NCBI GenBank assembly: GCA_945877405.1
Contig: CAMCSA010000019.1
Location: 1 to 36,809 of the forward strand
Length of the DNA: 36,809 bases
Reading direction: 5' to 3'
Source: an uncultured Erysipelotrichaceae bacterium
GTDB lineage: Bacteria > Bacillota_I > Bacilli_A > Erysipelotrichales > Erysipelotrichaceae
Part shown: in pieces, positions 9,856 through 13,727 of the stretch
Numbering within the stretch: the stretch's first letter is position 1
Layout: every line of letters begins with the position of its first letter
Notes under the pieces: model-generated
Database searches by the model: none
The model's input: only the letters and a program-made list of their open reading frames with translations
What the model was told of the DNA's origin: nothing
Translations under genes and position numbers: made by a program

Positions 9856-9950
9856 AAATTTCTGATTTTTTTGTGCCGCTTTTTTCATAGAGGACTATAA
9901 TAAAACACGTTATTTGAGACAGTATTATGTCTGAAGGGGGAAATATAGAA

Positions 9951-10298
9951 ATGCAGCTGCTCGTGCATATAACAAACCATGAGGAATGTGTTACACCAAT
10001 CATGGAAAAGATGATGGAAGCAGGGATTCATGGAGCATCCATCGTTGATTGTGAAGGCATGCTGGCAAGCATCAATCAGGACAGTGTCAATGCACCATCC
10101 ATCTTTGGTGGCCTGCGCAGGTTTGTCAATCCGGAACGTCCACAGAACAAGATGATTCTTGTGGTACTCAAGGATGAGGAGGTCAAGGGGGCTATTGATA
10201 TCATTCATGAAGTATCCGGTGATCTGAAGCTTCCGAATACAGGAATTCTGTTTACAGTACCTGTTACACGCTGGGAAGGTGTATGTGAGTCAAAATGA
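9951..10298 (+). CDS. PII-like signal protein paired with an ion antiporter
   Basis: A 115-residue protein matching the PII/GlnB ferredoxin-like layout. Strand-helix-strand MQLLVHITNHEECVTPIMEK is followed by GIHGASIVDCEGM (compare ITGMTVTEVKG of GlnB), a variable loop with GGLRRFVNPE, the core KMILVVLKDEE and a C-terminal NTGILFTVPVTRWEGV resembling the GKIFVFDV-R tail. The uridylylated tyrosine and classic T-loop are absent, so it is not canonical GlnB. It overlaps the antiporter by four bases, which suggests direct gating of that protein by a nucleotide or other ligand, as other PII-like proteins do for transporters. The ATG at 9951 has GAAGGGGG ten nt upstream; the earlier ATG at 9927 would overlie that site. 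Confidence 0.78.
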   Translation: MQLLVHITNHEECVTPIMEKMMEAGIHGASIVDCEGMLASINQDSVNAPSIFGGLRRFVNPERPQNKMILVVLKDEEVKGAIDIIHEVSGDLKLPNTGILFTVPVTRWEGVCESK

Positions 10299-11464
10299 CA
10301 ATCATTCTGTATCTTGCAATGGCAATGACTGTAGCCCTGCTGATGACAAGAATCACTCGTCTTGCCAAACTTCCAAATGTAACAGCTTATCTTCTTGCTG
10401 GTGTACTGATTGGACCTGGTGTTCTCAATCTTCTGAAATCTGATTCCATTGGTGCGCTGTCACTTGTGACTTCCGTATCGCTTGGATTTATTGCCTTTTC
10501 CATTGGTGATGAATTCAGACTGTCCACACTGAAACAGATTGGTGGACAGGCAATGCTGATCACATTATTTGAAGCTCTTGGAGCTGTTGTTCTTGTGGAT
10601 TGTATTACACTGGCACTTGGTTTCCCACCTGCTATGTGTATCACCCTTGGAGCGCTTGCGGCATCCACTGCTCCTGCGGCAACTCTGATGGTTGTCCGTC
10701 AGTACAAGGCAGACGGCCCGTTAACAAGAATGCTTTTACCGGTGGTGGCAGCCGATGATGCAATCGGACTGATTGCCTACTCGATTTCCATCAATGTGGC
10801 CATCGCTTTAGCAAATCAGGAAAGTCTGAACGTTGTCAGTACCTTTCTGATCCCGCTTGCTCAGCTCGGTCTTGCCTTGCTGATCGGGGCAGCGATCGGA
10901 TTTGTCACGGCATTATCACACAGGTATTTTCGCTCACATACAAACCGTATGTCGATTGCGATTGCCGGTGTATTTGCCTGTACGGCTTTAGCAGATCAAT
11001 GGGGACTTTCTTCGTTGCTGATGTGCATGGCAATGGGTGCGGTATATGTCAATCTTCGAGATGATGCAGAGCGGGTCCTTGGATGTGTGGATGACTGGAC
11101 CTATCCGATGTTCATGCTGTTTTTTGTCATCTCTGGTGCATCATTGGATCTTGGTTCACTGCCAAAGGTCGGATTGCTTGGCATTGTATATGTCATTGTC
11201 CGATTTGCCGGAAAATGGATCGGCTCCTATCTGGGTTCCACTTTGACACATCAGCCGGATGTCATCCGTAAGAATATCGGATTTGCTCTGATGCCACAGG
11301 CTGGTGTAGCCATTGGTATGGCAACGCTTGCGGCCTCTCAGCTTCCAGGATATGGTTGCCAGGTACAGACAGTCATCCTTGCCGGTACACTGGTGTATGA
11401 GCTGATCGGACCGTTATCTGCCAAATTTGCACTGTCACGTGCTCATGAAATCCATGCCAGTTAA
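10295..11464 (+). CDS. CPA2-family cation/proton antiporter
   Basis: A 389-residue membrane protein of the Na+/H+ exchanger (Kef/NapA, CPA2) fold with about 12 hydrophobic segments. The paired acidic residues of electrogenic exchangers appear in LPVVAADDAIGLIAYS. The first helices (PNVTAYLLAGVLIGPGVLN) match the family start. No RCK/KTN or TrkA domain is fused at the C-terminus. The regulatory role such domains play in Kef proteins may be filled by the PII-like protein encoded just upstream. The reading frames overlap (ATGA), so translation is coupled. A terminator immediately follows the stop. The ion (Na+, K+ or other) cannot be told from sequence. Confidence 0.88.
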   Translation: MTIILYLAMAMTVALLMTRITRLAKLPNVTAYLLAGVLIGPGVLNLLKSDSIGALSLVTSVSLGFIAFSIGDEFRLSTLKQIGGQAMLITLFEALGAVVLVDCITLALGFPPAMCITLGALAASTAPAATLMVVRQYKADGPLTRMLLPVVAADDAIGLIAYSISINVAIALANQESLNVVSTFLIPLAQLGLALLIGAAIGFVTALSHRYFRSHTNRMSIAIAGVFACTALADQWGLSSLLMCMAMGAVYVNLRDDAERVLGCVDDWTYPMFMLFFVISGASLDLGSLPKVGLLGIVYVIVRFAGKWIGSYLGSTLTHQPDVIRKNIGFALMPQAGVAIGMATLAASQLPGYGCQVQTVILAGTLVYELIGPLSAKFALSRAHEIHAS

Positions 11465-11465
11465 G

Positions 11466-11490
11466 GGCGCATTTTCGAATGCACCTTTTT
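11466..11490 (+). terminator. Rho-independent terminator with UUCG loop
   Basis: GGCGCATT (11466-11473), loop TTCG and AATGCACC (11478-11485) form the stem with one mismatch, followed by five T. It begins two nt after the antiporter stop codon and rules out a MATE start at 11479. Confidence 0.82.
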
Positions 11491-11502
11491 GCTTGCCTGC
11501 TG

Positions 11503-11531
11503 TTCCTGTTTTGTGAAAATACATGTATAAT
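11503..11531 (+). promoter_or_regulatory. Promoter of the MATE gene, positioned for a leaderless transcript
   Basis: TATAAT at 11526-11531 is a perfect -10 box. A weak -35 (TTCCTG, 11503-11508) is 17 nt upstream. Transcription should start about seven nt after the -10, at or next to the ATG at 11539. Confidence 0.55.
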
Positions 11532-11538
11532 AGCAGGC

Positions 11539-12951
11539 ATGGCGAAAACAGTAGATCTTGCAGAAAAACTGCAGAAAAATGAAGACATTCCGTTCAAGGA
11601 ACGGATGAATATTGTATACAGATTATCATTGCCTGGCATTCTGGCACAGATTGCGGAAATTATCATGCAGTATATTGATGCGGCAATGGTAGGTGTTCTT
11701 GGCGCTGCGGCAAGTGCTTCCATTGGCCTTGTTGCCAGTGCAACCTGGTTATTTGGCGGAATTATTTCCGGTGCGGTTGCCGGCTTCTCGGTACAGATTG
11801 CTCAGGCAATTGGGGCAGGGGATCATGAACGATCCGGTAAACTGTATAAGCAGTCCATTATCGCATGTTTATTTGTATCGGCGATTACAGGTGGGATCGG
11901 TATGCTGCTGGCACTGGTGTTACCGAAATGGTTAGGTGCAGAGCAGTCGTTATGGCATGATGCAACAATGTATTTCATGCTGTTTTCCATGTTTATTCCA
12001 GTACGGTGCATGCAGAGCCTTGGTATAGCAGCACTGCAGTGTGTCGGTAATATGAAAGTGCCAAGCATTCTTACCGCAACCATGTGTGGTCTGGATGTCA
12101 TCTTTAATTACTTCCTGATCTTTCCGACAAGAATGATCAGTTTCGGGGGAATCTCCATGATGATGCCAGGGGCTGGACTTGGAGTGGCTGGTGCGCAGCT
12201 TGGTACATCTTTGTCCTTTGTCGTATGTATGATTCTGTTACATACCTATATTCAGATGAAAGAAAAAAGACTGTCCGTATTCCACAGTAAAGGCAGATGG
12301 ATTCCGGAAGCTTATATTGTTAAGGAAGCTGTGCGGATCGGATTACCAATGGCGCTGGAGCATTCGGCAACTTCTGGTGCCCAGGTGATTTCTACAAAGA
12401 TTGTTGCACCACTTGGTACAGTGGCAATTGCGGCCAACTCCTTTGCGGTAACTGCTGAATCCATCTGTTATATGCCAGGATTTGGTATTTCTTCTGCTGC
12501 TACCACAATGGTAGGGCAGGCGATTGGTGCAAAACGGAAAGATCTTGCCAGATCTTTTGCCTGGTTGACAACATTTTCCGGTATGGTCATTATGGGTTTG
12601 ACAGGAACGATCATGTTCTTTGCATGTCCGTATGTATTTGCCTTTTTGACACCGGACCCTGAGGTACAGCAGCTTGGTGCTTCCGTGTTAAGAATTGAAC
12701 TGCTTGCAGAACCGTTATTTGCAGCAAGTATTGTTGCTGGTGGTGCATTGCGAGGTGCTAAGGATACACTTGTTCCTGGCATCATCAATCTTGTTAGTAT
12801 GTGGGGAATCCGACTGACACTGGCAATGGTGCTTGTAAAACATATTGGCCTGTATGGTGTATGGGTTGCCATGGCGACGGAATTATCTGTGCGTGGTATT
12901 CTGTTTCTGGTCCGTCTGAAAAAAGAAAAGTGGCTGGAAAAAGCGATTTGA
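11539..12951 (+). CDS. MATE-family efflux transporter
   Basis: A 470-residue protein with about 12 membrane segments and the duplicated MatE domain. PGILAQIAEIIMQYIDAAMV opens the first half, and GLPMALEHSATSGAQVISTK opens the second. Relatives export cationic drugs, flavins or other organic compounds in exchange for Na+ or H+. The start is uncertain. ATG 11539 lies seven nt after TATAAT and has no ribosome site, whereas ATG 11605 has AAGGA four nt upstream but would begin very close to the first membrane helix. I favour 11539. The gene forms its own unit between two terminators. Confidence 0.88.
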   Translation: MAKTVDLAEKLQKNEDIPFKERMNIVYRLSLPGILAQIAEIIMQYIDAAMVGVLGAAASASIGLVASATWLFGGIISGAVAGFSVQIAQAIGAGDHERSGKLYKQSIIACLFVSAITGGIGMLLALVLPKWLGAEQSLWHDATMYFMLFSMFIPVRCMQSLGIAALQCVGNMKVPSILTATMCGLDVIFNYFLIFPTRMISFGGISMMMPGAGLGVAGAQLGTSLSFVVCMILLHTYIQMKEKRLSVFHSKGRWIPEAYIVKEAVRIGLPMALEHSATSGAQVISTKIVAPLGTVAIAANSFAVTAESICYMPGFGISSAATTMVGQAIGAKRKDLARSFAWLTTFSGMVIMGLTGTIMFFACPYVFAFLTPDPEVQQLGASVLRIELLAEPLFAASIVAGGALRGAKDTLVPGIINLVSMWGIRLTLAMVLVKHIGLYGVWVAMATELSVRGILFLVRLKKEKWLEKAI

Positions 12952-13025: not shown

Positions 13026-13727
13026 TCAGTTGCTGGAAGAAGTAGGCAGGTATGGGCGTAATGCATCTGCCAGAGAATGGATGTTTCTTGTCTGGATCAG
13101 CACCTTGCCATAACCTGTAAAGCGGTTAACCAGTCCTTCGCCGGATGTAAAACCAAATGTTCCAGAAGCAACTTCAATGGAATAGTTCAAAGAAGAATCC
13201 CATGCAACGACATGTTCATTATCAATGGTAATTGGTCTGTCAGGTGTGACTTCAAGTTCAATCAGATCTCCAAATGCAGATACAAACAGATCACCTTCAC
13301 CTGTTGTTTCCATAACAAAGAATCCACCTGTTCCACCAAATAAGGCTTTGCCTGCACTCTGAGATCTCATCTCATATGTAACGGTGCTGTCACAGCACAG
13401 AAATGCGCCTGTGTTAAGTCTGTATTGAGTGGAACCACCAACGTAAAGATGCTGAATCTTACCTGGAATTGCCGGTGCAATACCAACCCGTCCATTGTTG
13501 GTTTCACCTGTAGCATGTGTAATGAACATGGATTCGCCTGAGGTCAGACTTCTGCCTAATGCCCCAAGGAATGAACCAAAGCCACTTCCTTTGGAATTCA
13601 TCTTACCTTCCAGGCTGACATCCTGCATGAATACCATGGAACCACGTTCCATGATGATTGTTTCTCCGCGTTCTAATGATACTTCAAGCATCGGGCAGTC
13701 GGAGTCGCCCAGAATTCTGTAAATCAT
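13026..13727 (-). CDS. AIM24-family (TIGR00266) protein of unknown role
   Basis: A 233-residue protein with the full AIM24/TIGR00266 pattern: LERGETIIMERGSMVFM near the start, then the glycine-rich GSGFGSFLGALGRSLTSGES, FFVMETTGEGDLFVSAFGDL and a C-terminal GEGLVNRFTGYGKVLIQTRN. The family forms a trimeric beta-sandwich related to the TRAP-like fold. The eukaryotic member acts in mitochondrial inner-membrane organisation, and bacterial functions are not established. The ATG at 13727 is preceded by GAGAG. It is transcribed divergently from an MFS transporter and ends in its own terminator. Confidence 0.9.
   Translation of the reverse strand: MIYRILGDSDCPMLEVSLERGETIIMERGSMVFMQDVSLEGKMNSKGSGFGSFLGALGRSLTSGESMFITHATGETNNGRVGIAPAIPGKIQHLYVGGSTQYRLNTGAFLCCDSTVTYEMRSQSAGKALFGGTGGFFVMETTGEGDLFVSAFGDLIELEVTPDRPITIDNEHVVAWDSSLNYSIEVASGTFGFTSGEGLVNRFTGYGKVLIQTRNIHSLADALRPYLPTSSSN

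Follow-up and report, generated by a model that had tools for sequence, protein, structure and literature searches.

Among the described systems closest to the locus studied here, KhtT/KhtU and AmhM/AmhT reportedly combine an RCK_C gene with a CPA2 gene, and GlnK gates the transporter AmtB. The PII-like protein SbtB uses its T-loop to plug SbtA, a 5+5-fold transporter resembling ASBT (PMC8352866). The gene of another member of the PII superfamily, PII-NG, lies in an operon with the proton/cation antiporter CzcABC (PMC7726332). According to one account, only transporters able to act as trimers come under the control of PII (PMC10710835). In E. coli, EIIA-Ntr (PtsN) controls the CPA protein YcgO by its phosphorylation state (PMC7349511). 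The present study concerns a PII-like gene and a CPA2 antiporter gene that adjoin in a window of 36,809 nucleotides, the whole stretch of DNA analysed, from a 2.1 Mb genome (G000) of the Erysipelotrichales near Solobacterium. Their pairing is real, widespread and undescribed in the literature that we searched.

The PII-like gene (9951..10298, forward strand, stop included) encodes 115 residues. An alternative ATG at 9927, in open frame, would add 8 residues; the start is placed at 9951 because the relatives align from there and because a putative ribosome-binding site, read from the sequence as GAAGGGGG (9933..9940, forward strand), lies 10 nt 5' of that ATG. On the same strand, a four-base ATGA stop/start overlap, evident from the open reading frame coordinates (10295..10298), joins the gene to that of a NapA-like CPA2 Na+/H+ antiporter (10295..11464, 389 residues, no soluble domain). 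Translational coupling is likely from this arrangement, and overlap or near-overlap of the two genes is maintained throughout the genus. Searches of the locus returned no Rfam match, and any promoter or terminator signals did not rise above background. Downstream of the antiporter follow genes for a MATE-family exporter (11479-12951, forward strand) and an AIM24-family protein (13026-13727, reverse strand).

The small protein scores 21.3 bits against the Pfam P-II family (PF00543; gathering cut-off 25), which other members of its subfamily clear at 26.8-29.7 bits, and it matches no NCBIfam model. In an AF2 monomer prediction based on an alignment of 73 relatives, the elements follow the order beta-alpha-beta-beta-alpha-beta; the core is predicted with confidence, whereas a loop at about residues 43-62 is poorly ordered. 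Canonical PIIs gave the closest folds in the PDB, GlnK with a Foldseek E of 1.9e-6 and, by VIA, a Z of 12.8 with about 90 residues aligned, SbtB being absent among the 50 fold matches listed, and a profile search of PDB sequences gave only matches at E 0.02, to GlnK1. Since the best solved matches are canonical PIIs, the modelled protein is placed within the PII superfamily, as a divergent subfamily. It would presumably be homotrimeric.

Alignment with canonical PII profiles is weak overall, with reliable registers only at GATVxDxxGM and PNTGIxF. The canonical G35-F36 before the T-loop is replaced by G36-M37 (10056..10061, forward strand), invariant in 73/73 aligned relatives; the other invariant residues of the family are G28 and G90. 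The T-loop (residues 38-67; 10062..10151, forward strand) carries a conserved FG(S/G)LR...N..R..NK pattern, in which FG(S/G)LR, N60, R63 and NK66-67 are well conserved, and it contains no tyrosine; indeed the whole protein has none, so that Tyr51 of the canonical T-loop is missing. The B-loop equivalent is PNTGILF (residues 95-101; 10233..10253, forward strand) in place of canonical GDGKIF, with Ile99 at the position of Lys90, a position held by Ile, Val, Leu or Phe in 73/73 aligned members. Across the family alignment the GlnB/GlnK residues Gln39, Lys58, Lys90, Arg101, Arg103 and Tyr51 are absent, Arg101 and Arg103 being presumably canonical ligand residues, and the B-loop motif TGxxGDGKI is missing family-wide. 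In canonical PII, Gln39, Lys58 and this motif serve ATP/2-oxoglutarate sensing (PMC4316997). With these residues lost, Mg-ATP/2-oxoglutarate sensing of the canonical type appears unlikely. The host genome also encodes an ammonium transporter whose C-terminus is fused to a canonical PII domain (G000:C17:13507-15276; L181) and a second, partial PII piece on another contig (C41; L182).

The partner is a clear PF00999 protein (110.3 bits, cut-off 26.2). NapA is its nearest solved relative by sequence (E 6e-12), and its fold matches NapA (5bz2) with Z 39.8 and an rmsd of 3.4 over 374/389 residues. Alignment to NapA identifies D154-D155 (10754..10759, forward strand) as the two acidic residues with which electrogenic CPA2 antiporters bind the ion and K307 (11213..11215, forward strand) as the counterpart of the TM10 lysine (NapA K305, NhaA K300). 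All three residues are invariant in the genus and conserved in 58 sequences, among which K307 is again invariant. An acidic DD pair together with this lysine is a sign of electrogenic Na+(Li+)/H+ exchange in CPA2 antiporters, and the residues point to that activity as the predicted one here. An RCK/KTN domain is absent, and 389 residues leave no room for one. The original prediction of a 115-residue PII-like protein without the T-loop tyrosine, overlapping by four bases a CPA2 antiporter that lacks RCK/KTN, is borne out in each of these particulars. Its further proposal, that a PII trimer takes the place of the missing domain, receives no specific support: paired antiporters of all lineages mostly measure 388-463 residues, PF00999 genes of these genomes that have no PII-like partner mostly encode 390-475 (maximum about 550), and related antiporters are found standing alone, without a PII-like gene. 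Because unpaired antiporters mostly have no space for RCK either, the absence of RCK is by itself no argument for replacement by PII.

The neighbourhood survey that had been proposed as a check found the pairing kept in the genus, in Bacilli, in Clostridia and in other phyla. Within the genus the antiporter gene lies immediately downstream of the PII-like gene in 9/9 other PII-positive genomes, and a close antiporter (E<=1e-210) occurs in 9/9 of these compared to 0/26 PII-negative genomes, some of which are incomplete MAGs. Among 392 Bacilli genomes, 41 of 58 PII-like matches are paired, a pair being counted from coordinates wherever a PF00999 gene lies on the same strand at a distance of up to about 150 bp; the unpaired comprise nine in the sister family f2 and eight others, mostly weak matches. 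In an even sample of 249 Clostridia genomes, 62 of the 67 PII-like matches at E<=1.3e-19 adjoin a Na_H_Exchanger gene, in either gene order, and one of the remaining five lies at a contig end. Gemmatimonadota contribute 11 pairs from 17 matches, and further pairs occur in Spirochaetota, Fibrobacterota and an Omnitrophota-labelled lineage. The two gene orders divide 167 distinct pairs into 125 and 42. Chance adjacency is estimated at about 0.2% per gene, given about 2 PF00999 genes in a genome of about 1,800 genes, and the observed pairing far exceeds it. Neither a fold other than PII nor absence of the pair from related genomes, the two findings named in advance as speaking against the unit, was encountered.

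In the antiporter tree, unpaired members branch from within groups of paired ones. This is consistent with an old association with later losses, a reading that depends on the midpoint rooting and on the loci fetched. Two Clostridia loci (L212 and L219) carry tandem duplicated pairs. A much more diverged, weakly PII-like small protein of the same size directly precedes related antiporters at L104, L106 and L107, and at L113 and L114 two different CPA genes lie in tandem, without PII, behind a putative GGDEF/EAL signalling gene.

A second linkage, to Mrp operons, is a new observation of this study. Outside Firmicutes, genes of the same PII-like subfamily are found at Mrp-operon loci L075/L267, L268, L100/L185, L094/L273, L271 and L132/L186, where genes MnhE/F/G/B lie beside PII-like and PTS EIIA genes (L132/L186 being without EIIA); the PII-like and EIIA genes head the operon or lie inside it in L075 (3998-5921), L100 (3977-5944), L267, L268 and L271. 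Outside Firmicutes the subfamily is often accompanied by, or fused to, a PTS EIIA domain. EIIA-PII-CPA cassettes occur in Gemmatimonadota (L164, L170, L171) and at L277 and L279-L281, some distant CPA-like neighbours (e.g., L281) being detected by a custom profile only and not by Pfam. Fused EIIA-PII proteins lie directly beside a CPA gene in L124 (1486-2325, reverse strand), L125, L126, L269 and L270; both Pfam domains are found in L124 and L269, and profile matches support the fusion in L125, L126 and L270. The EIIA domains inspected retain the PTS active-site histidine. At L123, L169 and L176 PII appeared to be joined to a long protein upstream, but these fusions were rejected as artefacts, being long high-GC open frames with no upstream Pfam domain. 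No EIIA gene accompanies the pair in the window. Mrp and CPA2 antiporters are unrelated in sequence and mechanism and have Na+/H+ exchange as their common function. That one regulator family is linked to two unrelated antiporters argues much more strongly than either linkage alone that it has a role in Na+/H+ antiport, and points to the subfamily as a module of Na+/H+ antiport control.

The interpretation that we favour, with moderate confidence, is a co-translated unit in which a PII-like trimer would sense a cytoplasmic signal and switch the NapA-type antiporter at its cytoplasmic face. The PII fold, the antiporter type, the loss of canonical ligand residues and the linkage to two unrelated types of Na+/H+ antiporter are the parts of this interpretation that the data support; direct antiporter gating and ligand identity we infer. 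The trimer would bind most likely via its T-loop, and electrogenic Na+/H+ exchange might thereby be switched, with inhibition as the more likely direction. The signal would probably be a state of the adenine nucleotides that differs from the canonical ATP/2-oxoglutarate signal, and sodium and pH homeostasis would thus be coupled to energy state. Analogy with SbtB and PstA would favour ligands with fewer phosphate contacts, such as ADP, AMP or cyclic nucleotides. Given that SbtA resembles ASBT, and that the ASBT fold is classed together with NapA and NhaA, the antiporter may offer a surface of a kind to which a PII T-loop is already known to bind. Symmetry stands in the way: PII proteins are trimers and NapA-type antiporters are dimers, a mismatch that counts against direct gating. 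Across 168 PII-like/antiporter pairs, co-variation was stronger in cognate than in swapped-neighbour pairs, a difference for which finer shared ancestry could account; T-loop columns were not commoner among the top co-varying pairs than in the swapped data, so the interface cannot be named. Nearest-neighbour agreement between the partners was 0.59, compared to 0.05 by chance. The distance matrices correlated weakly (r 0.27, just above permutations), probably because of saturation. A wider proposal, which we rate at slightly less than even odds, is that a PII-like subfamily devoted to this task, unaccompanied in Firmicutes and EIIA-joined elsewhere, constitutes a general control module gating both dimeric CPA2 and multi-subunit Mrp antiporters, in which case PII control would not be confined to trimeric transporters.

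The favoured mechanism has to be weighed against the possibility that the PII-like protein serves the same sodium, pH or energy stress response by acting elsewhere, on an enzyme, a transcription factor or a second transporter, and that the antiporter is merely co-expressed. Canonical PIIs commonly have several targets, and in the sister family f2 of the same order (L011-L020, e.g., Faecalibacillus) the PII-like gene stands alone; four of the f2 genomes carrying it gave no PF00999 match at all, so the protein must have other targets or another role there. The five Clostridia matches without an adjacent antiporter, contig end included, can be read in the same way. Yet the linkage persists through inversion of gene order, through duplication and through exchange of CPA2 for Mrp across phyla, for which co-expression alone is hard to credit, and we regard this explanation as rather unlikely. 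As an observation on f2 in its own right, a PLP aminotransferase-like gene and the PII-like gene are divergently oriented in L012, L014, L016 and L020.

Two other explanations change the signal or the cargo. The antiporter might export or exchange ammonium, with the PII-like protein in the part that GlnK plays for AmtB, as reporter of nitrogen status; PII ancestry would suit such a device, as would the ammonium transport by some CPA2 proteins such as AmhT. It appears highly improbable in view of the Mrp link, the DD/Lys signature of Na+/H+ exchange, the presence in the same genome of a canonical PII of its own, carried by the ammonium transporter as a fused domain, and the family-wide absence of TGxxGDGKI and of Gln39 and Lys58, which are required for 2-oxoglutarate sensing (PMC4316997). 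Alternatively, the PII-like protein would be no energy sensor but a c-di-AMP receptor opening a K+ or Na+ exporter in the manner of KhtT/KhtU or CpaA. In B. subtilis, c-di-AMP binds to KhtTU and CpaA, which export potassium, and has a stimulating effect on exporters (PMC7857571), and the PII-like proteins PstA/DarA and SbtB bind c-di-AMP. The present protein, however, gave no match to PF06153 (CdAMP_rec, PstA/DarA) at E<=1, and its loop plan, a long T-loop (38-67) with a short B-loop, is the opposite of that of PstA/DarA; the antiporter signature, moreover, is that of Na+ rather than K+ exchangers. We consider a c-di-AMP receptor improbable.

Lastly, the cross-phylum pairing suggests an undescribed bacterial switch for salt and pH control. 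If the favoured mechanism of PII-like gating is true, bacterial Na+/H+ antiporters would possess a soluble, ligand-responsive switch in addition to the pH and RCK domains to which their control is otherwise mostly credited; PII control of transporters would reach beyond trimers; and many gut Clostridia and Erysipelotrichales would have their sodium and pH homeostasis tied to nucleotide or phosphotransfer state. The T-loop and antiporter pair would offer a simple test system for a threefold regulator meeting a twofold transporter. A literature search, covering little of the subscription literature, found neither a description of a PII-like/CPA or PII-like/Mrp unit nor a biochemical characterisation of any member of the subfamily. 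The original prediction that control of a cation/proton antiporter would be a distinct use of a PII-like protein stands to that extent, and is partly anticipated by PII-NG/CzcABC (PMC7726332) and SbtB/SbtA (PMC8352866).

The locus can be compared with several known systems. The Borrelia PII-like protein BB0017 (DUF2179) was considered and set aside, being unrelated to antiporters. PotN is reportedly an energy-sensing PII subfamily of Firmicutes; the likeness is that of a PII subfamily in Firmicutes, and the difference lies in its neighbour, a polyamine transporter. KhtT/KhtU and AmhM/AmhT resemble the locus in that the gene of a small soluble regulator adjoins that of a CPA2 antiporter without a fused regulatory domain, the regulator there being an RCK_C domain and here a PII fold. 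With GlnK/AmtB it shares a small PII gene paired with a transporter, which the protein would here be predicted to gate; ligand residues, transporter family and uridylylation tyrosine differ, and the Amt-PII fusion is encoded separately in the same genome. In PtsN/YcgO an EIIA domain controls a CPA antiporter (PMC7349511), as it may also do in the EIIA-PII-antiporter cassettes; that system involves no PII protein, and the window locus lacks an EIIA gene. In PII-NG/CzcABC a PII-superfamily gene likewise shares an operon with a proton/cation antiporter (PMC7726332); CzcA, however, is a metal pump of the RND type, so that the partner belongs to another family; the phyla and the cation are different as well, and the neighbours of the present subfamily are CPA2 or Mrp antiporter genes, not czcABC/RND. 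SbtB/SbtA also combines a PII-like regulator with a secondary transporter of inverted 5+5 repeats (PMC8352866). Here the partner is a PF00999 antiporter and not Sbt, with no adjacent sbtA; SbtA is a trimer and NapA-type antiporters are dimers; and the C-terminus reads WEGVCESK, without the CGPxGC loop of some SbtBs. Set beside these systems, the pair represents a known type of transporter regulator with a new class of partner.
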